From the NCBI RefSeq assembly GCF_024297065.1, contig NZ_CP101114.1, positions 1,950,501 to 2,014,500 on the forward strand: a stretch of 64,000 bases of DNA, in the 5' to 3' direction. The stretch is from Bartonella harrusi. Its GTDB lineage: Bacteria; Pseudomonadota; Alphaproteobacteria; Rhizobiales; Rhizobiaceae. Positions 5,240 through 40,864 of the stretch are shown one piece after another (positions within the stretch are counted from its first letter, which is position 1; the number at the start of each line of letters is the position of its first letter). A model generated the notes under the pieces. It worked only from the letters and a program-made list of their open reading frames with translations, made no database searches and was not told where the DNA came from. Both the position numbers and the translations under genes were made by a program.

Positions 5240-5527
5240 TCATGTTACTTCTAATTCCTCAAGTGTATATCCATTCTCCAACCATTCTTTAATCCACTTA
5301 GGTCTACGCCCACGCCCATTCCACAATTCCCATTGGTTATTGGGATTTCTATAGTAACGTTCTTTATTCACAAGATCAGCGATGTTAATTCCATGTGCAC
5401 TAGCGATTTCAAGAATTTTTCGCCGTGCATTTTGCTTTTCTTTTGCTTGCCGTTTTTTTAATTCCACCTCAATTTGGGTACGCATCTCTTGTAGTTCATC
5501 AAAATTCATATTTTTAAGATTATTCAC
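5240..5527 (-). CDS. H-NS family nucleoid-associated protein (xenogeneic silencer type)
   Basis: Small DNA-binding protein of about 95 residues. The N-terminal half is a charged heptad-like coiled coil (dimerisation). The C-terminal half has the H-NS AT-hook-like signature YRNPNNQWELWNGRGRRPKW followed by a helix. Such proteins silence AT-rich acquired DNA. It is transcribed away from the Trw locus and shares an upstream region with it, so it is a natural candidate for a local regulator. In plasmid R388 korB lies beyond trwN, and this gene is in a comparable position, but position alone does not prove it is KorB. I chose the GTG at 5527 because AGGGGAG lies 8 nt upstream. An earlier in-frame GTG at 5560 would add 11 residues. 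Confidence 0.85.
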   Translation of the reverse strand: MNNLKNMNFDELQEMRTQIEVELKKRQAKEKQNARRKILEIASAHGINIADLVNKERYYRNPNNQWELWNGRGRRPKWIKEWLENGYTLEELEVT

Positions 5528-5654
5528 CTTATCACTCCCCTTGCAAAAAAAGAATTTCACTTTGCCATATTTTTAACACAATTATAGACGATTTTTGTCT
5601 ATTTGTTATCGAAATTTAAATTACGATAAATATATCACTTAACGGAGATGTGTT

Positions 5655-6925: not shown

Positions 6926-7054
6926 CACAGTCATCGCATTTATGAATTAGGACTATAATTTTGATAAGATATAGTAATGAAAGGTAGATAAAGGGATATT
7001 AAAGCTCTAAATTGGAAGATTATATGAAATTTTTTCTAATTGAGGGCACAAATA

Positions 7055-7354
7055 ATGAAAATGATAGAGCAAAACAGTGTTGATATCGCATTCAGTCAAA
7101 AGGCAGCACGTGAGATTACAATTGTGATGCGTTCAGAAAGAGAGTGGTATTTCACATTTGTTGCAGATGATCCGATAACCGGAAAACCAAATAAGTATAC
7201 GCTTCTTACACAAAGAGGGAAATTAAGAACTTGGGCTGATCCAAAATATCTCTTTAAATTTCTTCATGAAAGAGGTGTTTTTTATGGTAATTTTGAACTT
7301 AATCAGGACGAAAAACATGAAACAAACAAATACTCTTCTAACAATAGTTCGTAA
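7055..7354 (+). CDS. small conserved-looking protein in the korA position
   Basis: Product of about 99 residues. The ATG at 7055 has GAGGG 8 nt upstream and is preferred over an upstream TTG at 7040. The sequence has a charged N-terminal helix, then an aromatic, basic core (WYFTFVADDPITGKPNKYTL, RGKLRTWADPKYLFKFL) that looks like a compact folded domain. Its 3' end overlaps the start of trwL1 by about 38 bases, so the two are probably co-transcribed. In R388 the gene between trwN and trwL is korA, a repressor of the trw promoters. I do not see a clear helix-turn-helix, so the KorA role is inferred from position only. Confidence 0.55.
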   Translation: MKMIEQNSVDIAFSQKAAREITIVMRSEREWYFTFVADDPITGKPNKYTLLTQRGKLRTWADPKYLFKFLHERGVFYGNFELNQDEKHETNKYSSNNSS

Positions 7355-9741: not shown

Positions 9742-12212
9742 ATGACCGCTGTTGAAAGCAGCAAGCGTCTCGCTTCAGAGACGCCAGTAAGTCTGTTCAT
9801 ACCCTATTCCCATCACATTACAGATACGATCATCTCTACGAAAAATGCAGAATATTTATCAATCTGGAAGATTGATGGACGTTCGCATCAAAGTGCTTCG
9901 GAGGAAGATATTTTTCAGTGGGTAAAAGAGCTCAACAATACTTTGCGCGGTATTGCATCAGCGAATTTGTCACTATGGACTCATATTGTACGCCGACGCG
10001 TTTACGAATATCCCGATTCAACCTTTGATCAAATGTTTTGCTATCAGCTTGATGAAAAATACCAGCAAAGCTTTACGGGTTATAATTTGATGGTCAATGA
10101 TCTGTATTTGACTGTTGTTTTCCAACCGATAGCTGATAAAGTTATGTCATTTTTTTCCCAGCATGAACGTGAAACGCTTGATCAAAAAAGGATGCGGCAG
10201 GAAGCATGTATCAAAGCTCTCAATGATATTAACAACACCTTAGGTCAGTCACTAAAACGTTACGGAGCAGAACTTCTTGGTGCTTATAAAAAAATGGACG
10301 CGCTTACTCTTCAGCGCTCGAATTTCTCGCCATGCTTGTTAATGGCGAATACCGCCCTATGCCGGTCTGCTACGATCGTTTTGCCGACTACATGTCTATC
10401 AATCGACCTTTTTTCTCAAAATGGGGAGCTCTTGGTGAATTGCGTACCGCCAGTGGAATGCGCCGATTTGGTATGGTGGAAATTAAGGAATATGATATAA
10501 CGACGAGACCAGGTCAACTGAATGTTTTGCTGGAAAGTGATTTCGAATTCGTGTTAACCCAAAGTTTTTCTGTGCTCTCACGACATGCTGCCAAGGATTA
10601 TTTACAGCGGCATCAGCGTAATCTTATCGATGCACGAGATGTAGCAACGAGCCAAATTGAGCAAATTGACGAAGCACTGAATCAGCTTGTCAGTGGACAT
10701 TTTGTTATGGGTGAGCATCATTGTACATTAACCATCTATGGTGACACAGTTCAACAAGTTCGTGACCATATGGCAAAAGCAAGTGCCGCCTTGTTAGACG
10801 TTGCCGTACTACCCAAACCTGTCGATTTAGCCATAGAGGCTGGTTATTGGGCACAACTTCCAGCAAATTGGAAATGGCGGCCACGTCCTGCGCCGATTAC
10901 ATCACTAAACTTTCTGTCATTCTCATCCTTTCACAATTTTATGTCGGGTAAACCGACGGGAAACCCATGGGGACCAGCAGTTACAATTCTTAAAACAACA
11001 AGTAAAACACCGCTTTATTTCAATTTTCATGCCTCCACACTTGAAGAAGATTCAACAGACAAACGGTTGCTTGGAAATACCGCACTCATTGGGCAATCTG
11101 GTTCTGGTAAAACTGTTCTTCTTGGATTTCTGTTAGCACAAGCACAAAAATTCAAACCAACGACTGTTGTTTTTGATAAAGATCGTGGCATGGAAATTGC
11201 TATCCGAGCGATGGGAGGTCGATATCTATCATTTAAAGCTGGTAAAGCAAGCGGTTTCAACCCATTTCAACTTCCCCCCACACAAGATAATCTGATTTTT
11301 CTCAAACAATTTGTTAAAAAATTAGCAGAAGCTGGTGGTGAAGTCACACACCACGATGAAGAGGAAATTAACCAAGCTGTCACATCTATTATGAGCAATA
11401 ACATCGATAGATCGCTGCGTCGTTTGTCTTTTTTGATACAGTTCTTACCAAATCCGCATCAGAGCGATTATAAAGCACATCCATCAGTACACGCTCGCTT
11501 AATAAAATGGTGTGAAGGCGGTGATTATGGATGGTTATTTGATAATCCCAATGATGCGCTTGATCTCTCGACACATCAAATTTACGGTTTTGATATTACC
11601 GAATTCTTAGATAATCCAGAAACCCGTACCCCAGTTATGATGTATTTGCTTTACCGCACGGAAGGAATGATTAGCGGGCAGCGATTTATGTATATCTTCG
11701 ATGAGTTTTGGAAACCTTTACAAGATCCGTATTTTGAAGATTTGGCAAAAAACAAACAAAAGACGATCCGTAAACAAAATGGTATTTTTGTTTACGCAAC
11801 ACAAGAACCTGGTGATGCCCTAGAAAGTAATATCGCCAAAACGCTTATTCAGCAGTGTGCAACTTACATTTTTCTAGCCAATCCCAAAGCAAATTATGAA
11901 GATTATACAGAAGGCTTTAAACTGACAGATGCTGAATTTGAATTGATCAAAGGACTTGGTGAGTTTAGTCGGCAGTTTCTCATCAAGCAGGGTGACCAAT
12001 CTGCACTTGCAGAGCTAAATCTCGGCAAATTCCACGTAAAAATTGATGGAAAAACCATTACGCGTGACTTTAGTGACGAGCTTTTGGTGTTATCAGGTAC
12101 CCCTGACAACGCAGAGTTGGCCGAAAACATTATCGCTAAAGTAGGCGATGACCCGGCAGTATGGTTGCCAATTTTTTTACAACATATAAAAACTGATCGA
12201 AGGGGAACATGA
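9742..12212 (+). pseudogene. trwK: TrwK, VirB4-like ATPase, interrupted by one frameshift
   Basis: VirB4 is the large ATPase at the base of the channel and is needed for pilus assembly and secretion. Two overlapping frames cover it: codons from 9742 carry the N-terminal CagE/VirB4 domain, and the frame ending at 12212 carries the rest, with Walker A GQSGSGKT near 11094 and Walker B MYIFDEFW near 11690. The switch lies at 10312-10317 (after ALTLQ): one missing base there restores LQ-x-LEFLAMLVNGEY, the expected VirB4 sequence. With that base the protein would be about 823 residues, a normal TrwK length. An ATG at 10332 could start a truncated C-terminal protein. A sequencing error is quite possible, because the rest of the frame is undamaged. 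Confidence 0.85.
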
Positions 12213-12955
12213 AAAAAATAATTCTTACAGTAATGATAGTAGTAATTTTTGGAACTTCAAATTCTACAGCAGAACTTTATTGGTTTAGAAAAAATGCATA
12301 TCTGGATAATAATAAAACGGGTAATAGTAGAACAGTAATGCTTAATATAAAACCAGTACGTCTTATGAATCTTGTTGATTTAACAAAACAAGAGCCTCCA
12401 CTGAATAAAGAGCAGCTTGAACAAACAAAAAAAACAAATCAATTTATAACAGGTAATCGGAATTTTGCCGCTGAAAATTTTAAGACTATGCAAACAGATT
12501 TAGGCAGCTTTTTTCTTAAAGATCCACAATTAATCTACAAGATAAATAACCATCCAACTATATCCGCATCACTCAAAGGTATTTTGCAAGAAGAAGAAAT
12601 ATCTACAACTGTTCGTGAATCGCGCAACTCTATCAAAAAACGCACCCAATATGCAGCAGTTATTGATAAAGCTGTAAGTTTACAAACTTTTCAGGAAACA
12701 GAAAATCGTTTTAAGCAAATCTCTGGACTCCTAAAAAAAATAAATGCAACAACTGACTTAAAAGACATTGCAGAACTACAGGCACACATAAAAGGAATGC
12801 TCGCCATGATCCAAAACGAAGCAACAAAATTACAGATGGTTGCCTATTCACGCAATGCAGAACAAACTCTTATCAAGCAGCAAAAACAAAAACGTAACAT
12901 GAAAATCTTAAACAGTGAAAATAAAGCAATGCCCACTATACGATTTATACGATAA
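12209..12955 (+). CDS. trwJ: TrwJ1, VirB5-like pilus-associated protein
   Basis: Minor pilus-tip component of about 248 residues, thought to act as an adhesin in the Bartonella Trw system. The N-terminal hydrophobic segment looks like a signal peptide. The rest is helical and charged. From about residue 70 (KEQLEQTKKTNQFITGNRNF) it is nearly identical to copy 2, whereas its N-terminal ~70 residues are unrelated and lack the Pro-rich linker and part of the helix. It starts with an ATGA overlap on the trwK stop. The 5' segment therefore looks like the ancestral or a recombined end, and the 3' part like a gene-converted copy. Confidence 0.88.
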   Translation: MKKIILTVMIVVIFGTSNSTAELYWFRKNAYLDNNKTGNSRTVMLNIKPVRLMNLVDLTKQEPPLNKEQLEQTKKTNQFITGNRNFAAENFKTMQTDLGSFFLKDPQLIYKINNHPTISASLKGILQEEEISTTVRESRNSIKKRTQYAAVIDKAVSLQTFQETENRFKQISGLLKKINATTDLKDIAELQAHIKGMLAMIQNEATKLQMVAYSRNAEQTLIKQQKQKRNMKILNSENKAMPTIRFIR

Positions 12956-13191
12956 ACTATCTATAACAAACATTTATGCCATTGATCGTTTTTCATCTTA
13001 GAAATAAAGATTTCGCATAGTATCTAGTGGTCTCTTTAAAATTCTAGAGAACGCAAAAAAATTTAATCTACCTAAAAACGATTCCAAAGACAAATGCTTA
13101 GTTAAATGGATTGTATAAATACGAATAAACACACAGCATGCATCAATGTCCTAAGTGATGGAAAAACAGAAATTTGTTAAAGGGGAATATC

Positions 13192-14076
13192 ATGGATTTT
13201 GTAATGTTCACGCAGCTTTTCAATAAAATTGATCAGGTAACAGCAACATACGTTACAGATATTTCATCAAAAGCAATCATTGCAATTACACCCATTGTGT
13301 CAATTGGGCTCACTATAGCTTTCATCACATATGGATGGCTCATCATCCGGGGCACTGTAGATATGCCCATCGTTGAATTTATTAACCATTGTTTGAGAGT
13401 GAGCATTATTACTTCAATTGCTCTCACTGCAGGGCTTTACCAAAATGAAATAGCCAATTTAATTACAAAAATGCCCAATGACTTGTTACATGCATTGATG
13501 CCCACCGCACCCCAAAATGCCGACTTTATCGAATTGATAAACAAAGTGGCCGAAAATGGGTTTAAGCGAGCAAGCGAAGCTTTCGAAGAAGCTGCTTTCT
13601 TAAATTCTGAGGGGCTTCTGTACGGTCTCTTCGGCATTCTCATCTTACTTGCAACAAGTTTCTTAGCCGCAATTGGCGGTGGATTCATTTTGTTAGCAAA
13701 AATCGCACTTATACTTCTCATCGGTCTTGGACCGTTCTTTATCATTGCCTTACTTTGGCAACCAACCTATCACTTTTTCGAACAATGGATCGCTCAGATC
13801 TTAAACTACACAGTTCTTATTACACTTTTGGCTACTGTATTTAAACTTATGATGAGCATCTTTGCAAATTACATGAATGATTTGCAATTTGATGGTCACC
13901 AGAATGTCAGTTATGCACTTGGTGGTGTTCTCATCTTATCTATTCTCTCCATTATGCTGTTGTTCAAACTATCAAGCATTGCGAGTGCCTTGGCAAGAGG
14001 TGTTACATTTGGACACCTCTGGAGATTAAATAGCGTAGGAAATAATGCTTTCCGTGACAGATATATAAGAAAATAA
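13192..14076 (+). CDS. trwI: TrwI1, VirB6-like polytopic membrane protein
   Basis: Inner-membrane channel component with about five to six hydrophobic segments, 294 residues from the ATG at 13192. AAGGGGAA lies just upstream, and an alternative TTG six codons earlier is unlikely. The central periplasmic loop (roughly residues 85-140, ending in KRASEAFEEAAFLNSEG) is followed by the conserved AIGGGFILLAKIALILLIGLGPFFI segment typical of VirB6. It lies about 235 bases after trwJ1. The encoded protein is identical to TrwI2. Confidence 0.92.
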   Translation: MDFVMFTQLFNKIDQVTATYVTDISSKAIIAITPIVSIGLTIAFITYGWLIIRGTVDMPIVEFINHCLRVSIITSIALTAGLYQNEIANLITKMPNDLLHALMPTAPQNADFIELINKVAENGFKRASEAFEEAAFLNSEGLLYGLFGILILLATSFLAAIGGGFILLAKIALILLIGLGPFFIIALLWQPTYHFFEQWIAQILNYTVLITLLATVFKLMMSIFANYMNDLQFDGHQNVSYALGGVLILSILSIMLLFKLSSIASALARGVTFGHLWRLNSVGNNAFRDRYIRK

Positions 14077-14175
14077 CAAAAACCCCTATAACATAGTAAC
14101 AAATACCTACGTTACAGTTAATATTTTCATGACTAAAAACAATCACAAAGCATACGTTTTATTTTATAATCAAAA

Positions 14176-14204
14176 TTGAAATAAAGATAAAAAAGTGTTA
14201 GAGG
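14176..14204 (+). promoter_or_regulatory. promoter-like element before trwH1
   Basis: TTGAAA, 17 bases, TAGAGG, embedded in the conserved block TAATCAAAATTGAAAT. The same element with the same spacing occurs in all five J-I-H units. The start of trwH1 is 35 bases after the -10-like hexamer. The extent of conservation upstream of the -35 suggests a bound regulator as well. Confidence 0.55.
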
Positions 14205-14238
14205 TATATATTTAAATTAAAGAGAGGGGTATTATAAA

Positions 14239-14370
14239 ATGAAAGTGATCAGTTTTATACTTTTGATTGCGAGTTTTTTATCCGCTTGCGGATTGGCTCC
14301 AAAACCAAAGCAACCCAATAATTGGAACCGTGTGCCTATTAACAAAACCCTCCCTGCCGAAACTCAGTGA
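14239..14370 (+). CDS. trwH: TrwH1, VirB7-like lipoprotein
   Basis: 43-residue lipoprotein that anchors the outer-membrane core by pairing with TrwF. Signal peptide with lipobox LSAC (Cys17), then a Pro/Lys-rich segment and WNRVPINKT, the VirB7 motif that contacts VirB9. GAGAGGGG precedes the ATG. The stop lies 8 bases before the trwJ2 ATG. DNA is identical to copy 2. Confidence 0.9.
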   Translation: MKVISFILLIASFLSACGLAPKPKQPNNWNRVPINKTLPAETQ

Positions 14371-14378
14371 GGTATAAT

Positions 14379-15182
14379 ATGAAAAAAATAATCACCACAA
14401 TAACAGCAATAACAATGGTAGTAATTTCTGTAACTCCAAGTTTCGCAATATTTTTGTGGGGAGCAGGATCTGCAGATTTAAAAGCAGGAGTTCCTGCTTT
14501 GCCTGGTAGTTTTTTTAAGAAAAATTCTCCCCCCAAAAAAACACCTCCAAAACCTCCTATAGTTATACCGTCTCTTACACAAAAACTTCTTACAGAACTC
14601 ATTGATTTAACAAAACAAAGACTTGAGCAAAATAAAGAGCAGCTTGAGCAAACAAAAAAAACAAATCAATTTATAACAGGTAATCGGAATTTTGCCGCTG
14701 AAAATTTTAAGACTATGCAAACAGATTTAGGCAGCTTTTTTCTTAAAGATCCACAATTAATCTACAAGATAAATAACCATCCAACTATATCCGCATCACT
14801 CAAAGGTATTTTGCAAGAAGAAGAAATACCTATAACTGTTCGTGAATCGCGCAACTCTATCAAAAAACGCACCCAATATGCAGCAGTTATTGATAAAGCT
14901 GTAAGTTTACAAACTTTTCAGGAAACAGAAAATCGTTTTAAGCAAATCTCTGGACTCCTAAAAAAAATAGATACAACAACTGACTTAAAAGGCATTGCAG
15001 AACTACAAGCAGGCATAAAAGGAATGCTCGCCATGATCAAAAATGAAGCAACAAAATTACAGATGGTTGCCTATTCACGCAATGCAGAACAAACTCTTAT
15101 CAAGCAGCAAAAACAAAAACGTAACATGAAAATCTTAAACAGTGAAAATAAAGCAATGCCCACTATACGATTTATACGATAA
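14379..15182 (+). CDS. trwJ: TrwJ2, VirB5-like protein
   Basis: 267 residues from the ATG at 14379. A longer ORF start overlaps trwH1, but this ATG aligns with the other copies. Signal peptide (ending near PSFA), then a variable Gly/Ala/Pro-rich segment (KKTPPKPPIVIPS), then the helical body with LIDLTKQRLEQNKEQLEQ and a Lys-rich C-terminus. Its middle and end match TrwJ1; its signal peptide matches TrwJ3. The signal peptide and the helical body have clearly been shuffled independently among the copies. Confidence 0.9.
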   Translation: MKKIITTITAITMVVISVTPSFAIFLWGAGSADLKAGVPALPGSFFKKNSPPKKTPPKPPIVIPSLTQKLLTELIDLTKQRLEQNKEQLEQTKKTNQFITGNRNFAAENFKTMQTDLGSFFLKDPQLIYKINNHPTISASLKGILQEEEIPITVRESRNSIKKRTQYAAVIDKAVSLQTFQETENRFKQISGLLKKIDTTTDLKGIAELQAGIKGMLAMIKNEATKLQMVAYSRNAEQTLIKQQKQKRNMKILNSENKAMPTIRFIR

Positions 15183-15418
15183 ACTATCTATAACAAACAT
15201 TTATGCCATTGATCGTTTTTCATCTTAGAAATAAAGATTTCGCATAGTATCTAGTGGTCTCTTTAAAATTCTAGAGAACGCAAAAAAATTTAATCTACCT
15301 AAAAACGATTCCAAAGACAAATGCTTAGTTAAATGGATTGTATAAATACGAATAAACACACAGCATGCATCAATGTCCTAAGTGATGGAAAAACAGAAAT
15401 TTGTTAAAGGGGAATATC

Positions 15419-16303
15419 ATGGATTTTGTAATGTTCACGCAGCTTTTCAATAAAATTGATCAGGTAACAGCAACATACGTTACAGATATTTCATCAAAAG
15501 CAATCATTGCAATTACACCCATTGTGTCAATTGGGCTCACTATAGCTTTCATCACATATGGATGGCTCATCATCCGGGGCACTGTAGATATGCCCATCGT
15601 TGAATTTATTAACCATTGTTTGAGAGTGAGCATTATTACTTCAATTGCTCTCACTGCAGGGCTTTACCAAAATGAAATAGCCAATTTAATTACAAAAATG
15701 CCCAATGACTTGTTACATGCATTGATGCCCACCGCACCCCAAAATGCCGACTTTATCGAATTGATAAACAAAGTGGCCGAAAATGGGTTTAAGCGAGCAA
15801 GCGAAGCTTTCGAAGAAGCTGCTTTCTTAAATTCTGAGGGGCTTCTGTACGGTCTCTTCGGCATTCTCATCTTACTTGCAACAAGTTTCTTAGCCGCAAT
15901 TGGCGGTGGATTCATTTTGTTAGCAAAAATCGCACTTATACTTCTCATCGGTCTTGGACCGTTCTTTATCATTGCCTTACTTTGGCAACCAACCTATCAC
16001 TTTTTCGAACAATGGATCGCTCAGATCTTAAACTACACAGTTCTTATTACACTTTTGGCTACTGTATTTAAACTTATGATGAGCATCTTTGCAAATTACA
16101 TGAATGATTTGCAATTTGATGGTCACCAGAATGTCAGTTATGCACTTGGTGGTGTTCTCATCTTATCTATTCTCTCCATTATGCTGTTGTTCAAACTATC
16201 AAGCATTGCGAGTGCCTTGGCAAGAGGTGTTACATTTGGACACCTCTGGAGATTAAATAGCGTAGGAAATAATGCTTTCCGTGACAGATATATAAGAAAA
16301 TAA
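15419..16303 (+). CDS. trwI: TrwI2, VirB6-like membrane protein
   Basis: Second trwI, 294 residues, protein sequence identical to TrwI1. Same ribosome site and same 235-base leader after trwJ. Because it is an exact copy it adds dosage or recombination substrate but no new protein variant. Confidence 0.92.
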   Translation: MDFVMFTQLFNKIDQVTATYVTDISSKAIIAITPIVSIGLTIAFITYGWLIIRGTVDMPIVEFINHCLRVSIITSIALTAGLYQNEIANLITKMPNDLLHALMPTAPQNADFIELINKVAENGFKRASEAFEEAAFLNSEGLLYGLFGILILLATSFLAAIGGGFILLAKIALILLIGLGPFFIIALLWQPTYHFFEQWIAQILNYTVLITLLATVFKLMMSIFANYMNDLQFDGHQNVSYALGGVLILSILSIMLLFKLSSIASALARGVTFGHLWRLNSVGNNAFRDRYIRK

Positions 16304-16402
16304 CAAAAACCCCTATAACATAGTAACAAATACCTACGTTACAGTTAATATTTTCATGACTAAAAACAATCACAAAGCATACGTTTTATTTTATAATCAA
16401 AA

Positions 16403-16431
16403 TTGAAATAAAGATAAAAAAGTGTTAGAGG
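16403..16431 (+). promoter_or_regulatory. promoter-like element before trwH2
   Basis: Identical to the element before trwH1: TTGAAA, 17 bases, TAGAGG. Confidence 0.55.
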
Positions 16432-16465
16432 TATATATTTAAATTAAAGAGAGGGGTATTATAAA

Positions 16466-16597
16466 ATGAAAGTGATCAGTTTTATACTTTTGATTGCGAG
16501 TTTTTTATCCGCTTGCGGATTGGCTCCAAAACCAAAGCAACCCAATAATTGGAACCGTGTGCCTATTAACAAAACCCTCCCTGCCGAAACTCAGTGA
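16466..16597 (+). CDS. trwH: TrwH2, VirB7-like lipoprotein
   Basis: 43-residue lipoprotein identical to TrwH1, with lipobox LSAC. The stop lies 8 bases before the trwJ3 ATG, the same spacing as in the first unit, so trwH and the following trwJ are probably translated from one message starting at the promoter-like element. Confidence 0.9.
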   Translation: MKVISFILLIASFLSACGLAPKPKQPNNWNRVPINKTLPAETQ

Positions 16598-16605
16598 GGT
16601 ATAAT

Positions 16606-17379
16606 ATGAAAAAAATAATCACCACAATAACAGCAATAACAATGGTAGTAATTTCTGTAACTCCAAGTTTAACGCAAACACGTTATTTCCCTAATTTTTT
16701 TTATTGGTTTAGCTCCCCAAAGAAACCAACACCTCCAACTCCCCCAAAACCTCCTATAGTTAAGCCGTCTCCTATACCAAAACTTCTTACAGAACTCATT
16801 GATTTAACAAAACAAAAACTTGAGCAAAATAAAGAGCAGCTTGAACAAACAAAAAAAACAAATCAATTTATAACAGGTAATCGGAATTTTACCGCTGAAA
16901 ATTTTAAGACTATGCAAACAGATTTAGGCAGCTTTTTTCTTAAAGATCCACAATTAATCTACAAGATAAATAACCATCCAACGACATCCGTATCATTCAA
17001 AGATATTTTGCAAGAAGAAGAAATATCTACAACTGTTCGTGAGTCGCGCAACTCTATCAAAAAACGCATTCAGAATGCAGCAGTTATTGATAAAGCTGTA
17101 AGTTTACAAACTTTTCAGGAAACAGAAAATCGTTTTAAGCAAATCTCTGGACTCGTAGAAAAAATAAATGCAACAGCTGACTTAAAAGGCATTGCAGAAC
17201 TACAAGCACGCATAAAAGGAATTCTAGCCATGATCGAAAACGAAACAACAAAATTGCAGATGGTCGCCCATTCACGCGATGCAGAACAAACTCTTATCAA
17301 GCAGCAAAAACAAAAACGTAACATGAAAATCTTAAACAGTGAAAATAAAGCAATGCCCACTATACGATTTACACGATAA
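16606..17379 (+). CDS. trwJ: TrwJ3, VirB5-like protein
   Basis: 257 residues. It shares the signal peptide with TrwJ2 but replaces the following segment with TRYFPNFFYWFSSPKKPTPPTPPKPPIVKPS, a distinct Pro-rich linker. The helical body shows scattered substitutions relative to copies 1 and 2 (TTSVSFKDILQ, VEKINATADLK). Downstream it is no longer followed by an intact trwI: only remnants remain. It is therefore the last gene of the intact left-hand block. Confidence 0.9.
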   Translation: MKKIITTITAITMVVISVTPSLTQTRYFPNFFYWFSSPKKPTPPTPPKPPIVKPSPIPKLLTELIDLTKQKLEQNKEQLEQTKKTNQFITGNRNFTAENFKTMQTDLGSFFLKDPQLIYKINNHPTTSVSFKDILQEEEISTTVRESRNSIKKRIQNAAVIDKAVSLQTFQETENRFKQISGLVEKINATADLKGIAELQARIKGILAMIENETTKLQMVAHSRDAEQTLIKQQKQKRNMKILNSENKAMPTIRFTR

Positions 17380-17795
17380 AAACTTCACAGCAACTCATTT
17401 ATTGTATTTCACTGTAGGTTCTTTTAATAACTGTACTCAGTCTTATGACAAGACGATCATACGCACTGCGTTAATCTATAAATAGTTAACAGAAAGTATA
17501 AACGACATGTGCAAAAACGCAAATTATATACACTTAGAAAGAAGATTTTACCCTTTCCAATACTTTCATCGTGCTATTTCTAAACTATACTTCAAGTATA
17601 TTAACTGGAAAAATACGTCATATTTTAACACTTCTAAATTACATAGAATAGGAAATACTTTCTCTCTCACTAATCAGATAATCAAAATCCAACCACTTAT
17701 AAGATATTATTGATATAGAAAATAAAAACGATTAAAAATTACATAATTTATAATCAAAATTGAAATTATAGTAGAGATATGTTAGGGTATCTAAC
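17380..17795 (+). pseudogene. trwI 3' remnant and spacer
   Basis: No intact gene. Around 17610-17690 the sequence resembles the end of trwI: a TTACATAGAATAGGAAATACT stretch corresponds to TTAAATAGCGTAGGAAATAAT of the functional copies. A 68-codon ORF here is probably accidental. Almost all of trwI has been lost, leaving its tail and the promoter-like element. Confidence 0.55.
17760..17788 (+). promoter_or_regulatory. promoter-like element in the decayed unit
   Basis: TTGAAA, 17 bases, TAGGGT, preceded by the same TAATCAAAA block. The trwH that should follow is missing: a trwJ-like start (ATG at 17796) comes directly after. Conservation of the element here may simply reflect recent decay. Confidence 0.5.
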
Positions 17796-18634
17796 ATGAC
17801 TAAAAGAGAAAAGAAACATAAAAAAACTATTATTTCAGTAGCAATAACAATCATTTCTGAAATACAGAGCACAAATTTTATGGTTTATAGATCGGGAAGA
17901 TCCGATTCTTATGAAAATTCTTGCTCTCAGGAAAATTCTTAGAAATCAGAGAAGAACAACTCTCCTTCTCTAAAAGATGTAATGCGATAGGCAAAACAAA
18001 AGATACTCTTGTTTCTTTAGCAAAAGAACAGCTTGAAATAGTAAAAAACAACTTAAAGACTATAAACAAAACATACCATTCTATAACGCGTTCTCGTCAA
18101 TTTTATATTATGCAAACAAAAAATGCAGATACTCTTTATTTTAAAAATCCACACTCCATCTAAATAAAGATAGGTTTGATATAAAAAGCTCTTCAATAAA
18201 TTCGCATGTTTCTAAAATAGAAAAAAGTGTAACGGCCCACTGGAGTAAAATCTTAACCTTTTTTCAATTCCTGTAGTACGTGCACTTATTGAAGACCGCA
18301 GCCAATATACAGCAGTTGTAGATAAAGCTTTGAGCTTGCAAATTTTTGATGAAGAAGAAAACCGTTTTATGTACATCAAAAAAAAGCCTTAATTGACACG
18401 GAACAGGCGCATGATATTAAAAAGATAAACGAATTAAATATGTATGTTGAAGGTACACTTGCAGTAATCCAAAATGAGATTACTAAATTGCAAATGGTTG
18501 CACTTTGGCGTGACACAGAACAAACACTGGTCCACCAGCAAAAATATAAACGCAATGCAAGAATTTCAAACCGTAACAACAAACAAATACCAACGGTAAA
18601 AGTACAATATATAAAAGCTACAAAAACAGAATAA
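17796..18634 (+). pseudogene. decayed trwJ copy
   Basis: The sequence follows trwJ throughout but is broken by stops and frame changes. The start resembles the signal peptide codons. A middle frame (17921-18163) encodes EEQLSFSKRCNAIGKTKD... and stops after KNPHSI (the KDPQLI point of intact copies). The end (18440-18634) encodes EGTLAVIQNEITKLQMVA, matching the C-terminal body. It cannot make a full protein. Confidence 0.8.
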
Positions 18635-18832
18635 GCTCTTTATAACAAGCTCATACCATAAATTTACTCTAATGAAAAATAAGTGTGTAATGCTTAGAGC
18701 AATCCCAACCAACTAAAAAAACATATAAAAATTTGATCGCCTTAAGTCCCAAAAATATTTTTTGTGAATAACATGAATGCAAAAAACAACACCATACACC
18801 AATATTTCAAAACAATGGAAAAGTGAAAATTC

Positions 18833-19745
18833 ATGACAGAAAAGCACTCTGCACTTTAGAACATTTACACCACTTAAATTAATACAATAACAAATACATA
18901 TATTACGGATATTTCATTAAAAATGATCGTTATAATGACACCTGTTGTCTCAATCGGTCTTAGTATTACTTTCATTGTATATAGATGGCTTATTATTCGC
19001 AGTACAATTGATTTATTCCCGGTGTAGTCGATATATCTATCTCTGACTTTTTAAGCCGTTGCTTACGGATAAGCATTATTCCCTCAAGGGCACTAACTTC
19101 GGGATTTTATCAGTAGAAATCGCAGATTTGATAATGAGCACATTTAGTACCTTATTATCTGCACTAACAACTTCATAAATCAACCATTCCCCAAATGATC
19201 ACCACACTTGATATGACCGAACCGAAGATTTAAGCGAGCAAGCGAAGCTTTCGACGAAGCTGCTTTTTCTTAAATTCTGACGGCCTTCTTTACGGTCTCT
19301 TCGGCATTCTTATTTTGCTTGCAACAAGTTTCTTAGTAGCAATTGGTGGTGGACTCATTATGTTGGCAAAAATCACACTTTTGCTGCTTGCCGGTCTCGG
19401 TCCATTCTTTATCATTGCCTTGCTCTGGAAACCAACCTATCGTTTTTTCGAACAATGGATCGCTCAAATCTTAAACTATACAATACTCATAATACTCCTA
19501 GCCACCGTATTTAATCTGATGATGGGTATCTTTGCAAATTACATGAATGATCTGAAGCTCGATGGTCACCAGAATGTGGGTTACACACTTGGTGGTGTTC
19601 TCAGCTTATCTATTCTCTCCATTATGCTGTTGTTCAACCTATCAAATATTCAAGTGCTTTGGCAAAAAGCATCACATTTGGACATTTATGGAAGCTGCCT
19701 GCAGTAGGAAAGAACGCTTCTCGCAACAGATATATGAGAAAATAA
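18833..19745 (+). pseudogene. decayed trwI copy
   Basis: Codons for YITDISLKMIVIMTPVVSIGL (N-terminal part) are present but interrupted by stops and small deletions around 19020-19200. The 3' half is an open frame at 19315-19707 (LATSFLVAIGGGLIMLAKIT...) matching the second half of TrwI, frameshifted near the end. It retains the FEEAAFLNS-like segment out of frame. Not functional, but a possible donor for gene conversion. Confidence 0.82.
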
Positions 19746-19848
19746 CAAAAAATCCTATAATGCAGTGAATAATTTCCGTGCTACAAACGTAATATTTCTG
19801 TAAATGAAAATAAAAGTTGATTTTATGCTATTTATTTAATAATCAAAA

Positions 19849-19877
19849 TTGAAATAATGATAAAAAAATGTTAGGGG
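19849..19877 (+). promoter_or_regulatory. promoter-like element before trwH3
   Basis: TTGAAA, 17 bases, TAGGGG within the shared TAATCAAAATTGAAAT block. The start of trwH3 lies 33 bases downstream. Confidence 0.5.
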
Positions 19878-19910
19878 TCTATTTCACAGTCGAAAAAGAG
19901 GACTATTAAA

Positions 19911-20054
19911 GTGAAAATAATCATTTTTATAATTTTGATTGCGAGTCTTTTATCCGCTTGTGGATTAGCTCCAAAGCCAAAACAACCAAATAATTGGAAC
20001 CGTATCCCTATTAACAAAACAATCCCTGCTGAAATTCAGCGAGGAGCAATATGA
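19911..20054 (+). CDS. trwH: TrwH3, VirB7-like lipoprotein
   Basis: 47-residue lipoprotein starting with GTG, with GAGGAC upstream. Lipobox LSAC, then LAPKPKQPNNWNRIPINKTIPAE as in the other copies. It is four residues longer than TrwH1/2 (RGAI tail) because its stop overlaps the next ATG as ATGA, exactly as trwH4 overlaps trwG. So this copy was once the trwH that directly preceded a trwG. Confidence 0.8.
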   Translation: MKIIIFIILIASLLSACGLAPKPKQPNNWNRIPINKTIPAEIQRGAI

Positions 20055-20158
20055 CAAAAAAACAAACTAAACCAGTAAAAGCAGAAAAGCTTAACAGTTA
20101 TTACGAAGAGAGCCGAGGCTGAAAACGTGAATTCATTAACGAATTTATAAGATCAGTA
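20051..20158 (+). pseudogene. trwG 5' fragment
   Basis: About 105 bases match the start of trwG at 22467: the encoded MTKKQTKPVKAEKLNSYYEE is nearly the same, then a TGA replaces the Leu codon after SRG, and similarity fades after the EFI-NEFIRS codons. It is a breakpoint scar from a duplication that included the trwH-trwG junction. Confidence 0.88.
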
Positions 20159-20218
20159 CTAGCGCAGTAATGTAATTACCATTTCTTCTAGAATTATATA
20201 ATAACAAAGGATAAAGCT

Positions 20219-21076
20219 ATGAAAAAGCTGATTATTATAACAGCAATCAGTTTATTTTTTGAAACGCCCAGTCTAGCAATAGGAATAGGAGTTGGACTGC
20301 CAGACATAAGCCTCCTATGGAACAGTGGAAAAGAAAGTTCAACGTCAACGTCAATGTGGAAATGGAGTTCAGGAATAATACCTTCGTACAGCAATGGAGA
20401 TAAAACAAAAAAAGCATCAGAAAAAAAACAACAAGCAGCCAGCGATCCTCTTCAAACCTTAATAAAACAACTGCTTGAAATAAATAAGAAGCAGTTCGAA
20501 AAAACTGAAAAAATACATGATGCTATAACAGGAACTCAAAAAATCAGCAAAAGGCAATACGATATACGACACGATAATAATGATATGTTACTTAAAAAAC
20601 CAGAATTCATCTACGATAAAGATAAACAGACAGAAATTTCTGAAAATATTCCCAAAGTATTGACAGAACTTATACAAAAAGAAAATTATTTTGATATGTA
20701 TGCTATAACTGATAGACGTGCATCTACAGATGCACGTAATTTTATCGATCAACGCATCCAATATGCAGCGCTCATTGATAAAATTATAACTTTGCAAACT
20801 TTTCAGAATGCAGAAAAGCGTTTTCATAAAATTGCAGAAATATCAACAAATATCGAGCAAACAGACAATCTAATGGATATCGCTAAATTGCAAATGCATA
20901 TAAAAAGTTTGCTTACTGTGATCCAAAACGAAGCGACAAAATTGCAAATGGTCGCACATTCGCGCAATGTAGAACAAGCACTTATTAACCGACTAAAACG
21001 CAAGCGCAATACACAAATTCTTAGCAGTAAAAATACAGGAATGCCAATTATACCGCTACACCACAATAAATTATAA
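20219..21076 (+). CDS. trwJ: TrwJ (last copy), divergent VirB5-like protein
   Basis: 285 residues, the longest TrwJ here. Signal peptide, a Gly/Ser/Trp-rich variable segment, then the helical body (QLLEINKKQFEKTEKIHDAITG) with the same architecture as copies 1-3 but clearly divergent, including an insert around ENYFDMYAITDRRASTD. Only the C-terminal core (LQTFQNAEKRF, IQNEATKLQMVAHSRN) is close to the others. It lies just after the trwG fragment and belongs to the right-hand intact unit. Confidence 0.9.
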   Translation: MKKLIIITAISLFFETPSLAIGIGVGLPDISLLWNSGKESSTSTSMWKWSSGIIPSYSNGDKTKKASEKKQQAASDPLQTLIKQLLEINKKQFEKTEKIHDAITGTQKISKRQYDIRHDNNDMLLKKPEFIYDKDKQTEISENIPKVLTELIQKENYFDMYAITDRRASTDARNFIDQRIQYAALIDKIITLQTFQNAEKRFHKIAEISTNIEQTDNLMDIAKLQMHIKSLLTVIQNEATKLQMVAHSRNVEQALINRLKRKRNTQILSSKNTGMPIIPLHHNKL

Positions 21077-21302
21077 TCAACATTTATACTTTCGTATCCT
21101 CTCTAATCATGAAAAAACACCATATAATACTCAAATGCCCTCCGATAACCCAAAGAAAAATATAAAAAATCTAACGCATTCTTCAAACATCTTGAAAAAA
21201 TATTTGTAGCAAATTGTATAAATGTAAATGAAGCACATAACATATATCAATCGTCAATGCCCCAAATGATGGAAAGATAAAAATTCGTTAAAGAGGAATA
21301 TC

Positions 21303-22163
21303 ATGAACTTTACAATGTTCACGCAACTTTTCAATAAAATTGATCAGATAACAGCAACATACATTACAGGTATTTCATCACAAGCGATCATTACAATTAC
21401 ACCTATTGTGTCAATTGGTCTCACTATAGCTTTCATTATATATGGATGGCTCGTCATTCGTGGCACAGTGGATATGCCAGTCAGCGAATTTATCAACCGC
21501 TGCTTCAAAGCAAGTATTATTACTTCAATTGCTCTCACTACAGGACTTTACCAAAATGAAATAGCCAATTTAATTACAAAAATGCCCAATGACTTGTTAT
21601 ACGCATTGATGCCCACCACACCCCAAAATTCCGACTTTATCAAATTGATCGACAAAGTAGCTGAGAATGGATTCAAACGAGCAAGTGAAGCTTTCGAAGA
21701 AGCTGCTTTCTTGGATGCTGACGGATTACTGTATGGTCTCTTTGGTATCCTCATCTTATTTGCAACAAGCTCTCTAACGGCAATTGGCGGAGCATTCATT
21801 TTGCTGACTAAAATTGCACTTGTACTTCTTGTCGGTCTTGGCCCTTTCTTTATCATTAGCTTGCTCTGGCAACCAACCTATCGCTTTTTCGAACAATGGA
21901 TCACTCAAATCTTAAGCTATACAATCCTTATAATACTCCTAGCTACTGTATTTAGTTTTATGATGAATATCTTTGCAATCTACATGAATGATCTGAAGTT
22001 TGATGGTAAGCAAAATGTCAGTTATGCACTTGGCGGTGCTCTCATCTTATCTATTCTCTCCATTATGCTGTTGTTCAAACTATCAAGCATTGCGAGTGCT
22101 TTGGCAAGAGGTGTTACATTTGAACACCTCTGGAAATTAAATAGAGTAAGTAGGAAGGGATAA
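21303..22163 (+). CDS. trwI: TrwI (last copy), VirB6-like membrane protein
   Basis: 286 residues. Close to TrwI1/2 over its whole length with scattered substitutions, mainly conservative and many in membrane segments, and a shorter C-terminal tail (EHLWKLNRVSRKG). AAAGAGGAA precedes the ATG. It keeps the same ~225-base leader after trwJ. Confidence 0.92.
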   Translation: MNFTMFTQLFNKIDQITATYITGISSQAIITITPIVSIGLTIAFIIYGWLVIRGTVDMPVSEFINRCFKASIITSIALTTGLYQNEIANLITKMPNDLLYALMPTTPQNSDFIKLIDKVAENGFKRASEAFEEAAFLDADGLLYGLFGILILFATSSLTAIGGAFILLTKIALVLLVGLGPFFIISLLWQPTYRFFEQWITQILSYTILIILLATVFSFMMNIFAIYMNDLKFDGKQNVSYALGGALILSILSIMLLFKLSSIASALARGVTFEHLWKLNRVSRKG

Positions 22164-22265
22164 TCCCACAGCAACAACACCACCAAAATATCTCTATAAG
22201 AGAAATAAAATTAACAAAAGAAAAACTCTCTAAAGTTACATACTCTTTTTATTTTATAATCAAAA

Positions 22266-22294
22266 TTGAAATAACGATAAAAAAATGCTAGAAT
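22266..22294 (+). promoter_or_regulatory. promoter-like element before trwH4
   Basis: TTGAAA, 17 bases, TAGAAT: the best match to a sigma-70 consensus among the five copies. It would drive trwH4 and the downstream trwG-F-E-D genes, whose products make the core complex and an ATPase. Confidence 0.6.
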
Positions 22295-22326
22295 TACATA
22301 TTACATTTAAAAAAGATGGTGTTTAA

Positions 22327-22470
22327 ATGAAGATAATCATTTTTACAATTTTGATTGAAATATTTTTATCCGCTTGTAGATTGGCTCCAAAGCCAAAGCA
22401 ACCAAGTCAATGGAACCGCATCCCTATTAACAAAACAATTCCTGATGAAATTCAGCGAGGAGCAATATGA
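22327..22470 (+). CDS. trwH: TrwH4, VirB7-like lipoprotein
   Basis: 47-residue lipoprotein with lipobox LSAC followed by Arg, and the SQWNRIPINKTIPDE segment. It overlaps trwG by ATGA. It is the copy in the canonical R388 position directly ahead of trwG. Confidence 0.9.
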   Translation: MKIIIFTILIEIFLSACRLAPKPKQPSQWNRIPINKTIPDEIQRGAI

Positions 22471-23165
22471 CAAAAAAAGAAGCTAAACCAGTAAAAGCAG
22501 AAAAGCTTAACAGTTATTACGAAGAAAGCCGAGGATTGGAACGTGACCTTATTAATGAATTTATGAGGTCACGTAAGACAGCGTGGCGTGTAGCAGGTGT
22601 CGTTGGTATTTTTGGGTTGTTTGGCATGGTGTGTGGAGTTATTGGTTTTTCCCAACCAGCTCCAACGCCTTTAGTATTACGCGTTGATAACACAACTGGT
22701 GCGGTTGATGTGATTTCTGTGATGCGCGAACATGAGACAAGTTATGGTGAGGTTGTGGACAGATATTGGCTTAATCAATATGTGCTTAACCGTGAAACTT
22801 ACGACTACGACACCGTTCAACTCAACTATGACACGACAGCACTTTTAAGCGCACCAACTGTTCAGCAGGAATTTTATAAGATCTACGAAGGTGAAAATGC
22901 GCGTGACAAAGTACTTTCCAATAAAGGGCGCATCACAGTTAAAGTAAGGTCAATCCAGCCAAATGGACGTGGCCAAGCAACAGTGCGTTTTACCACACAA
23001 CAACATGACACGACCGGTACTATTGGACCAAAACAACATCAAATTGCGACAATTGGTTACACCTATGTTGGTGCACCAATGAAATCATCTGATCGATTGC
23101 TTAATCCTCTTGGTTTCCAAATAACAAGTTACCGTGCTGACTCGGAAATACTGTTGAACAATTAA
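22467..23165 (+). CDS. trwG: TrwG, VirB8-like inner-membrane T4SS protein
   Basis: Bitopic inner-membrane assembly factor, 232 residues, single intact copy. Short cytoplasmic N-terminus (LNSYYEESRGLERD), one membrane segment (about residues 40-60), then the periplasmic NTF2-like domain with the VirB8 features VDRYWLNQYVLNRE and GPKQHQIATIGYTY. Its first 35 codons are duplicated as a dead fragment at 20051. trwF follows within 14 bases. Confidence 0.95.
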   Translation: MTKKEAKPVKAEKLNSYYEESRGLERDLINEFMRSRKTAWRVAGVVGIFGLFGMVCGVIGFSQPAPTPLVLRVDNTTGAVDVISVMREHETSYGEVVDRYWLNQYVLNRETYDYDTVQLNYDTTALLSAPTVQQEFYKIYEGENARDKVLSNKGRITVKVRSIQPNGRGQATVRFTTQQHDTTGTIGPKQHQIATIGYTYVGAPMKSSDRLLNPLGFQITSYRADSEILLNN

Positions 23166-23178
23166 GGGATTGATTATT

Positions 23179-23985
23179 ATGAAAAAAATTGTGTTAATGA
23201 CTCTATTGTCTTCACTTGTTTCTCTTTATACAGTACCCGCACAGGCACTCAAAACTCCATTTAATTCACAATATGATCATCGTATTCGTTATATCACTTA
23301 TAATATAGCTGATGTCGTTCAAATTGAAACCGTTCTCGGCGTGGCAACACATATTATCCTTGAAGAAGGCGAACAATATATCACCCACGCTTTTGGTGAC
23401 TCAGATGCCTATGCCTTTGCCCATAAAGGGCGGCATATTTTTATTAAACCCAAAGCAGAACTTGCCAATACAAACCTGATCGTTGTGACGGATAAACGTA
23501 GTTACAAATTTCGACTACAATTTCGCAATGACCGTGCTGGAGCGACTTATGAATTAGCTTTCCATTATCCTGAAGAAAATACCAAAAAATTAGAGGAACA
23601 CAAGCAACACCTTGCTCTCGAACGTGCTTTTCATAAAAGTATGGCAGGTTATAATCTGAGCTACACCATGAGTGGTAATCAAGACATTGCCCCAATAAAC
23701 GCTTGGGACAATGGACGTATTACCTATTTCAAATTTCCCGCCAACATGGATATGCCATCAATTTACGTAGTGGATGGCGAAGGTAACGAAAGTTTAATAC
23801 CACGTACTGTTGTGGGCAATTCCAATGATATTATCGCTGTTCATAAGGTCAATCCTAAGTGGCTTATACGTCTTGGTAAACGCGCTTTAGCTGTTTTTAA
23901 TGAAGCCTATGATCCCAATGGTATACCAAACACAACTGGAACAGTATCTTCGGCAGTTCATCGCATCAATAAAGGAGACAAATAA
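23179..23985 (+). CDS. trwF: TrwF, VirB9-like outer-membrane core protein
   Basis: Periplasmic/outer-membrane core subunit, 268 residues from the ATG at 23179 (AAGGGA 9 nt upstream). Signal peptide ends near AQA. The N-terminal domain includes the GVATHIILEEGEQ segment, and the C-terminal domain (from about residue 165, MAGYNLSYTMSGN) binds the TrwH lipoprotein, with NGRITYFKFP and GRRALAVFNEAYDPNG-like VirB9 motifs (here GKRALAVF). The stop overlaps the trwE start (TAATG). Confidence 0.95.
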   Translation: MKKIVLMTLLSSLVSLYTVPAQALKTPFNSQYDHRIRYITYNIADVVQIETVLGVATHIILEEGEQYITHAFGDSDAYAFAHKGRHIFIKPKAELANTNLIVVTDKRSYKFRLQFRNDRAGATYELAFHYPEENTKKLEEHKQHLALERAFHKSMAGYNLSYTMSGNQDIAPINAWDNGRITYFKFPANMDMPSIYVVDGEGNESLIPRTVVGNSNDIIAVHKVNPKWLIRLGKRALAVFNEAYDPNGIPNTTGTVSSAVHRINKGDK

Positions 23986-38943: not shown

Positions 38944-40864
38944 ATGTCAATCATGACTATGGATACTGGCGATAACAGCAAAAATTTAACCAACGATTCT
39001 CCCAACACAACTCTTGATGCTACAGCTTTTAAAAAAGCACTTTCCACCTGTATCCGCGCCATTGCTGGTACAAACAAGCTTGAAGTTTCCTTTAACAATA
39101 ACAGACCATCTTTAAGTGAAAATTATGCACGTTTACCGGAATTACCACAACATGCAACAAACAAAGATATCACGATTACGCGTGGATTAGGCGATTCCAT
39201 GGCTTTACGCACAGCATGGCATGATAACCGTATTCACACACAATTTGCTCCACAAGAATCAGAAGCCCGTGCCATCTTTGAAGCGCTTGAGCAAACACGT
39301 ATTGAAGCAATCGGCACCTTAGCCATGGAGGGAATTGCACAAAATCTTGATGGTATGCTTGCTGATAAATATCAAAGGGCCCATTATCAAAAGATTAACA
39401 CGCAAAGTGAAGCCCCTATCCAAGAAGCCATTGCACTTTTACTGCGTGAAAAAATAACCAAACGCCCTCCCCCAAAAGAATCTGGACCGGTATTAGAGTT
39501 ATGGCGTCAAGAAATCGAACAAAAAGCTGCAAAAGAACTAAACGAACTCACACACCATATTTACAACCAACCTGCTTTTGCACGCATTGTTCGTCAAATG
39601 CTTGTGACATTAAAAATGGCTGCACAACTAGAAGAAACTTCTGACAGTGAAAATAGTAAAAAATTAAAAAACCAGTGTGAACCCCAAAATCAAGCAGAAG
39701 AAGAGAGCAGCAACGAAAAAAAAACCCAAAGCGAAGAACAAACAACAGCAGAACAAGAAAGTGATGCGCAAAACAAAGGAAAAACACAAGCAACACGAAC
39801 CAATGACAGTGACAAAGCCGAAGAAGAACAAGAGAGAAATTCTTGGCAAAAAAAAAGTAAACCAAGCCAAACACCTTTTCACTGATTCAGAACAAATGGA
39901 AAGGCTTGGTAATTATAAAGTTTTCACCCGACAATTTGATGAAATTCTGGAAGCGATAGATTGTTGTCCTGAAAGCGAATTGGATCAGTTACGCCATTAT
40001 CTTGATAAACAAATCAATCATCTACAAAACATCGTTGGGCGTTTAGCCAATCGCCTACAGCGCCGTCTTATGGCACAACAAAATCGCAATTGGAATTTTG
40101 ATCTTGAGGAAGGATACCTTGATACAGCACGACTTTCCCGTCTGATCATTGATCCCATGCAACCCCTTTCTTTCAAAATGGAAAGCAACACCCCATTTCG
40201 TGATACTGTTGTTTCACTGCTCATTGATAATTCAGGCTCAATGCGTGGACGACCAATGACTGTTGCAGCAAGCTGTGCAGATATTTTAGCACAAACCCTC
40301 GAACGTTGTGGTGTCAAAGTTGAAATTTTAGGCTTTACCACAAAAACTTGGAAAGGCGGAAAATCCCGTGAACAGTGGCTTAGCCAAAATAAACCTCTTA
40401 ATCCGGGACGCCTCAATGATTTATGTCATATTATCTATAAAAGTGCGGATACCCCATGGCGTCGAGCACGGCGTAATTTAGGTTTAATGATGCAGGAGGG
40501 CTTACTGAAAGAAAATATCGATGGTGAAGCATTAATTTGGGCGCATCAACGCCTTTTATCACGACGCGAACAACGACGCATTCTCATGGTCATCTCTGAT
40601 GGAGCCCCTGTTGATGATTCAACACTATCGGTTAATTCCAGCAATTATCTAGAAAAACATTTACGCGCAGTAATTCAAGAAATCCAAACCCATTCTCCTA
40701 TAGAACTCATTGCCATTGGCATTGGTCATGATGTCACACGCTATTATCAACGTGCCGTCACAATTATGAATGCTGAAGAACTCGCCAACGCTATAACAAA
40801 ACAATTAGAAGAGCTCTTTAGCAATAAAAAATTCCATCGCCATAAAAGATTAAAAACTTTTTAA
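38944..40864 (+). pseudogene. cobT: cobaltochelatase subunit CobT, one frameshift in a poly-A tract
   Basis: Von Willebrand A-domain partner of CobS. The 5' frame (38944-39885) gives the N-terminal domain and a Gln/Glu/Lys-rich linker; the second frame resumes with [12 protein letters not shown] and the VWA domain with the metal-ion motif DNSGSMRG. Together they would give about 640 residues, the normal size. The frame change occurs at or near the run of nine A at about 39848-39856; one A fewer joins the frames. Slippage in the tract or a read error is likely, and the 3' part keeps clean coding sequence. Confidence 0.88.

Follow-up and report, generated by a model that had tools for sequence, protein, structure and literature searches.

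The 64,000-nt stretch of the Bartonella harrusi genome analyzed here (contig NZ_CP101114.1, positions 1,950,501 to 2,014,500; hereafter the window) carries a trw locus in which units of trwJ, trwI and trwH are tandemly duplicated, and a short conserved block recurs with them. Did the duplications copy only genes, or also the starts and switches from which the genes are read? We propose, with a probability of about 0.86, that the blocks are copies of a PtrwH promoter of the R388 type, each with an operator for the repressor KorA. The basis for this reading is sequence similarity to plasmid R388, position, geometry, conservation and the presence of KorA.

A preliminary description of this DNA had pointed out five occurrences of TTGAAA followed after 17 nt by TAG, at 14176, 16403, 17760, 19849 and 22266. 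All five are present, and the window holds no others; 100 dinucleotide shuffles gave a mean of 1.66 and a maximum of 4, and five was never reached. Every occurrence sits within the 16-mer TAATCAAAATTGAAAT, whose exact matches in the 2.27 Mb genome are these five. When up to two mismatches are allowed, 13 further genome matches appear, each with two mismatches. We refer to the blocks, in order, as P1 to P5 and to the operator at each as O1.

14169..14188, + strand: O1 of P1, the 20-mer ATCAAAATTGAAATAAAGAT, which holds TTGAAA at 14176-14181; left half perfect, right half with 4 mismatches
14199..14204, + strand: -10-like TAGAGG of P1, 17 nt after TTGAAA, with TG one base before it (extended -10)
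16396..16415, + strand: O1 of P2, same sequence as P1; recent duplicate
16426..16431, + strand: -10-like TAGAGG of P2
17753..17772, + strand: O1 of P3, in a dead unit; left half perfect, right half with 4 mismatches, outer GAT changed to AGT
17783..17788, + strand: -10-like TAGGGT of P3, with no trwH downstream
19842..19861, + strand: O1 of P4, ATCAAAATTGAAATAATGAT, identical to the genus consensus; left half perfect, right half with 3 mismatches
19872..19877, + strand: -10-like TAGGGG of P4
22259..22278, + strand: O1 of P5, which precedes trwH-trwG-trwF-trwE-trwD; left half perfect, right half with 4 mismatches
22289..22294, + strand: -10-like TAGAAT of P5; no other block passes a generic sigma-70 scan (10/12 here, TG before)

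P1, P2, P4 and P5 are located between trwI and trwH (trwI2 and trwH2 in the case of P2). The preliminary description placed a block before every trwH, dead unit included; the five blocks are there, but the window has four trwH genes, and P3 (17760) leads into remnants of trwJ and trwI. P1 and P2 lie inside a 100% identical repeat, so the constant spacing in the window rests on four distinct copies that are themselves related by duplication.

The gap between trwI and trwH in R388 (NC_028464, IncW) reads ATCAAAATTGCAATCCTGAT and then TGTTAGACT, and contains TTGCAA-N17-TAGACT with TGTTAG. The window resembles R388 in the position between trwI and trwH, the left half-site ATCAAAATTG, the arrangement TTGnAA-N17-TAGnnn, the TGTTAG, and the presence of korA and korB upstream in the same order. 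All five window blocks and R388 combine TTGnAA-N17-TAG with a TG placed one base ahead of the TAG. The half-site ATCAAAATTG is perfect in 5/5 window copies, and the inverted second half-site has 3 or 4 mismatches out of 10 in all five, R388 itself having 2; this right half reads CAATCCTGAT in R388 and AAATAATGAT or similar in the window. PtrwH is present in a single copy in R388, as against five in the window. In the available part of a study of R388 regulation, PtrwH is a measured promoter with KorA as its main repressor, acting approximately 90-fold. KorA is likewise the main repressor of PkorA and PkikA, but had no significant effect on PkorB; StbA acts 2- to 10-fold and controls PtrwH weakly as well, and the six regulators identified do not include KorB (PMC3937220).

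The R388-type palindrome is ATCAAAATTGCAATTTTGAT. In R388 it occurs with one mismatch between korB and the next gene and twice before korA. Across 14 kb of kor/trw DNA it is found at up to 3 mismatches in 5 places (korB/kikA, two at korA, before trwH and within trwH), and in none of 300 shuffles. A scan of the window with this palindrome gave 8 sites with up to 4 mismatches against 0.47 expected from 100 Markov shuffles, and 5 of the 8 are the blocks. As the palindrome recurs at the kor sites of R388, the block is best read as the left half and center of a KorA operator, the -35 hexamer being the operator center. The earlier suggestion that the block extends upstream of the -35 hexamer and hints at a regulator site was right about the site, a predicted KorA operator, and wrong about its placement, as the operator contains the -35 hexamer and is not merely upstream of it. 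Genome-wide, the full palindrome at up to 3 mismatches occurs at three places, namely P4, window position 40083 and contig position 639914, and only P4 is in trw. The sequence at window 40083-40102, ATCGCAATTGGAATTTTGAT, is palindrome-like, has 3 mismatches to the KorA operator and lies outside trw.

Of the two proteins put forward earlier as regulators of the block, the H-NS-type protein at 5240 and the small protein at 7055, the operator points to the latter, which is KorA by its family match. The regulators and the other candidate sites near them are as follows.

7055..7354, + strand: korA, likely repressor; 65% identical to R388 KorA over 98 residues; NF041289, 140.9 bits, cut-off 100
5240..5560, - strand: korB by position, H-NS-family protein; PF00816; 68% identical to the R388 H-NS-family protein
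5608..5627, unstranded: KorA operator-like site between korB and the open reading frame (ORF) at 5655; arms ATCG/CGAT, 5 mismatches; same place in R388 and other Bartonella
6946..6965, + strand: KorA half-site upstream of korA; right half 9/10, left half 5/10; R388 has two boxes here

korA has a single match in the genome (E 0.001). The korB/kikA and korA sites of R388 share the same palindrome and regulator family, and have degenerate counterparts at window 5608 and 6946 and in relatives; unlike the R388 boxes, the Bartonella korA site mostly retains the right half alone. One source states in general terms that the KorA/KorB circuit, working through kor boxes, is common to Bartonella and R388 and interchangeable between them; its section 9 names no sites (PMC6299047). 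RP4 KorA and R388 ArdK, similar in action to what is predicted for the 7055 KorA, are plasmid-borne repressors of transfer genes at promoter operators, and the available text describes solved structures for both (PMC9723621). The 7055 protein, in contrast, matches NF041289 and had no match in a phmmer search of PDB chains up to E 1, and we infer that its family is distinct from that of RP4 KorA and ArdK. Our literature search, mostly outside subscription journals, returned nothing on the sequence of the R388 KorA site or on promoters of trwH in Bartonella. Two papers that may deal with kor boxes are Seubert et al. 2003 and de Paz et al. 2005.

The palindrome is found on other plasmids as well. 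The more distant pMBUI4 and pAd12, whose KorA proteins are 53-54% identical to that of the window, carry it upstream of korA, close to korB and upstream of trwH, each time with 0-2 mismatches (the pAd12 site near korB falls within the annotated next gene), and their trwH site reads TTGCAA-17-TAGGCT. An Oligella plasmid has a perfect palindrome before trwH.

We compared 71 Bartonella genomes; TrwI was matched in 38 of them at E 1e-30. Apart from the window's own genome and G017, which was excluded, 36 of these remained and supplied 37 stretches; trwH is present in 36 of them, and with the window this gives 81 Bartonella trwH copies from 37 stretches, 58 of them distinct, after seven tblastn matches judged not to be trwH had been removed before counting (89 to 82, including R388). 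Exact copies of TAATCAAAATTGAAAT, counted in the list of matches, number 31 in 15/71 genomes. All are in trw, 30 before trwH and the 31st being P3, and genomes without a TrwI match have none. An operator with up to 4 mismatches to the Bartonella consensus is found in 35 of the 37 trw stretches (exceptions, L100 and L113), and the left half is perfect in 37/81 copies. At up to 1 mismatch to this consensus, 20/71 genomes match, one of them (G050:C61) on a contig other than that of its trw stretch.

The spacing, which the preliminary description took to be invariant, is 17 nt at all five window blocks, but 15-17 nt across the genus. TAG lies at 17 nt in 26 of the 81 copies, at 16 in 14 and at 15 in 5, with none at 13-19 nt in the other 36; these positions come from automatic anchoring, which is misplaced in a few divergent copies. 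An exact TTGAAA stands at the anchored place in 39 copies (that of L100 being spurious); 25 of these have TAG at 17 nt and 1 has it at 15, while 13 have none. The promoter geometry is old but not frozen.

Could the 16-mer also mark a chromosomal regulon? One-mismatch copies, which occur in many Bartonella genomes, including some without a TrwI match, suggested so; we rejected the idea, as in the two such loci opened the copy proved to be coding sequence. In both (L054 and L068, ~1501-1516) the copy is within a long open frame resembling what we take to be UvrA (uvrA).

The state of korA provides a natural test. An open korA frame of 88-100 codons is present in 26 stretches including the window, some of the frames stopping early at the 3′ side (88-94 codons); 25 of the 26 have trwH, and an operator with up to 4 mismatches is found in 25/25. 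The state of korA thus covers 26 trwH-bearing stretches, korA being out of view in the remaining 11. In L100 (genome G047), korA at 10042-10325 is broken by a stop after five codons and a frame change, and trwH has lost the operator in front of it (8 mismatches); the korB site is gone too (8 mismatches). This trw locus has apparently been freed from KorA. L100 also has no trwN match, a weakly matched korB and trwK in one frame. Separately, 8/71 genomes have a KorA match and no TrwI match at E 1e-30. Two of these matches, one with four stops (G046:C15:6604-6894) and one short (G042:C1:1265909-1266163), may be what is left of a lost trw locus; in the other six genomes, gaps in draft assemblies may be the cause.

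Several observations weigh against an R388-type promoter and operator at each block. None of the 81 copies has a perfect right operator half: every one has at least 2 mismatches, 54 have 3, and 80 have between 2 and 5. In part of the genus the -35 hexamer is TTATAA or TGGAAA, with 15-16 nt spacing. By automatic count, L113 has no site with up to 4 mismatches, and the alignment shows a divergent version; its genome is fragmentary, and its other stretch, L114, has a site with 4 mismatches. L100 is a single case and very divergent (TrwI 48-50% identical), so its operator loss may not stem from the loss of korA. Among the plasmids, the trwH sites of pMBUI4 and pAd12 lack TG before TAG, and Oligella has TACACT, not TAG, 17 nt past TTGCAA. 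Finally, a generic sigma-70 scan of 12900-22500 found 38 promoter-like sites against 39.6 expected, and of the blocks only P5 passes; such a scan has no power in this AT-rich DNA.

The strongest alternative is passive hitch-hiking, in which the blocks were copied along with the segment and transcription runs through all units from far upstream (PkorA). It fits the facts that all five copies derive from duplication, that two are identical and that the block of the dead unit is kept too. Between 12900 and 22500, moreover, 7 terminator-like sites (5.8 expected) all fall in genes or remnants and none in the gaps between units. We nevertheless consider it unlikely, since both the operator and TGnTAG persist from R388 through most of the genus while the flanking intergenic DNA diverges. 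P3 argues in the same direction, with its 16-mer intact although the 100 nt upstream are just 52-59% identical to the other copies; for comparison, the dead trwI is 74-76% and the dead trwJ 55-60% identical. P3 also keeps TGTTAG, and 5-7 of the 12 intervening bases match P1, P4 and P5. If neutral identity is 75%, a 16/16 match has a chance of approximately 1%, a weak figure given that the region was chosen after seeing it. We also considered a loss of the right operator half at P3 and ruled it out: its 4/10 mismatches equal those of P1, P2 and P5, even though the outer GAT kept in the other four is AGT in P3.

It is less probable still that the block serves the H-NS-type KorB or a chromosomal regulator in place of KorA. 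The sites are very AT-rich, and H-NS-type proteins prefer AT-rich DNA. KorA and KorB are, furthermore, jointly named as binders of kor boxes in the part of the source at hand (PMC6299047). The site, however, is a defined palindrome, and the R388 measurements cited above assign PtrwH to KorA and leave KorB out (PMC3937220); the exact 16-mer, as read from the list of matches, occurs nowhere outside trw in the 71 genomes. A promoter made up of a TATAAT on the 5′ border of the block (e.g., 14165-14170 and 16392-16397) and a -35 further upstream is very improbable: ATCACA-17-TATAAT scores 10/12 at 14142 and 16369 and TATAAT also occurs at P3 and P5, but P4 has AATAAT, the motif is absent there in R388, and relatives have TTTAAT, ACTATT, TCTAAT and others.

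What would be read from each of these putative PtrwH copies depends on the layout of the locus, which runs korB (- strand), the ORF at 5655, trwN, korA, several trwL, trwM, trwK, J1-I1, P1-H1-J2-I2, P2-H2-J3, P3 with the J/I remnants, P4-H4-(trwG start)-J-I, and P5-H5-G-F-E-D, with trwE and trwD corresponding to VirB10 and VirB11. In tblastn searches up to E 1, trwH was found only at 14239, 16466, 19911 and 22327.

14239..14370, + strand: trwH1, TrwH/VirB7-type lipoprotein of 43 aa; PF20898 at E 3e-4 and 21.4 bits, under the Pfam cut-off of 27; 56% to R388 TrwH by tblastn
16466..16597, + strand: trwH2, by tblastn
19911..20054, + strand: trwH4, by tblastn
22327..22470, + strand: trwH5, by tblastn; overlaps the trwG start at 22467

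Downstream of the blocks lie H-J-I (P1), H-J (P2), H-J-I (P4) and H-G-F-E-D (P5), and the expectation that the last copy leads into trwGFED is borne out. The expectation that each J-I-H unit carries its own promoter survives in altered form: by homology to R388, a promoter and a regulator site are predicted for each amplified unit, but the gene sets begin with H. The accessible portion of one report names two operons, korA-trwLMKJI and trwHGFED (PMC11828410). J1-I1 (12209-14076) has no block in front and must therefore be read from upstream, from the korA/trwL side.

Some further features of the locus were noted. A 35-codon trwG start (20051-20155) follows trwH4, which suggests that one duplicated segment ended inside trwG. 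trwK, encoding a VirB4-type ATPase (9742-12212), is split between two frames, with the junction near residue 184 of its R388 counterpart, in contrast to a single frame in 32/32 matched Bartonella stretches; this is either a broken or frameshifted gene or an assembly error, and conclusions about activity are better drawn from a relative. In L091, two extra trwH-like copies (5761 and 6942) are missing the stretch from the operator region to the start codon, as if it had been deleted between TTGAAA/ATGAAA-like sequences. At gathering score, Rfam found no family in 12000-23500.

Taken as PtrwH copies, the blocks suggest a simple mechanism. A KorA dimer on the operator would cover the -35 hexamer and shut the promoter, whose extended -10 (TGnTAGnnn) would be 17 nt downstream of that hexamer. 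As the promoter is inside the tandemly duplicated J-I-P-H segment, every duplication of the genes would have carried promoter and operator along. The promoters would then each read the following H and J (and I), and the last H-G-F-E-D. One korA would control all blocks in step, and when KorA is relieved the units would fire together, each from its own start. That these promoters fire, bind KorA and are co-regulated in Bartonella we infer by analogy with R388. The repeats thus seem to have raised the number of control switches along with that of the genes.

A second operator-like site (O2) may lie inside trwH. In R388, the first trwH codons hold ATCATTTTTGCAATTTTGAT, which has 3 mismatches and a perfect right half and is 78 bp after the first operator. 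O2 is the same in R7K, and in Oligella it has 4 mismatches, also at 78 bp. The window candidates are listed below.

14248..14267, + strand: O2-like site in trwH1, codons 4-10; 6 mismatches, weak
16475..16494, + strand: O2-like site in trwH2; 6 mismatches, weak
19920..19939, + strand: O2-like site in trwH4; 5 mismatches, right half 9/10
22336..22355, + strand: O2-like site in trwH5; 4 mismatches, right half perfect

Random synonymous recoding reached the O2 match with P 0.004 for R388 and, with R388 codon usage, 0.00004 for Oligella; in the window, the values were P 0.02 (H5), 0.07 (H4) and 0.02 (H1). At codons 4-10 shared between R388 and the window, the codon is identical in 5/5, 5/5 and 3/3 cases, compared to 0.30-0.48 later in trwH and to 11/26 at these codon positions in seven other kor/trw genes, with trwI counted a single time. 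TTTTGAT ends the O2 stretch in 67/81 Bartonella copies. Against O2, 62 of the 81 copies have at least 5 mismatches to the whole palindrome, and O2 was not found in pMBUI4 or pAd12. The O1-O2 distance varies; with few exceptions, O1 starts 62-70 nt ahead of the start codon. Other trwH codons are equally kept in the genus (e.g., Leu14 as TTA in 44/48), and special codon choice near the start codon may be an alternative cause. A second KorA contact within trwH is therefore suggestive only.

With this site, each promoter could be held by two operators, one at the -35 hexamer and one approximately 78 bp downstream in the signal-peptide codons of trwH. One korA would face five O1 sites, up to four O2 sites in trwH, and the korB and korA sites, and the number of units could then, by titrating KorA, set how strongly the whole pilus is expressed. 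We regard this combined proposal as doubtful, though worth stating.

In models cited by two reports, infection of red cells depends on the trw machinery; the available parts of both describe its copies as "probably" co-expressed (PMC2610397, PMC2883598). If our reading of the blocks is true, it names the likely control switch of this adhesion machinery. A KorA operator before each unit would offer a mechanism for the co-expression, and expression of the variant trwJ copies would become testable. The locus would also be a case in which gene amplification amplifies repressor binding sites as well.

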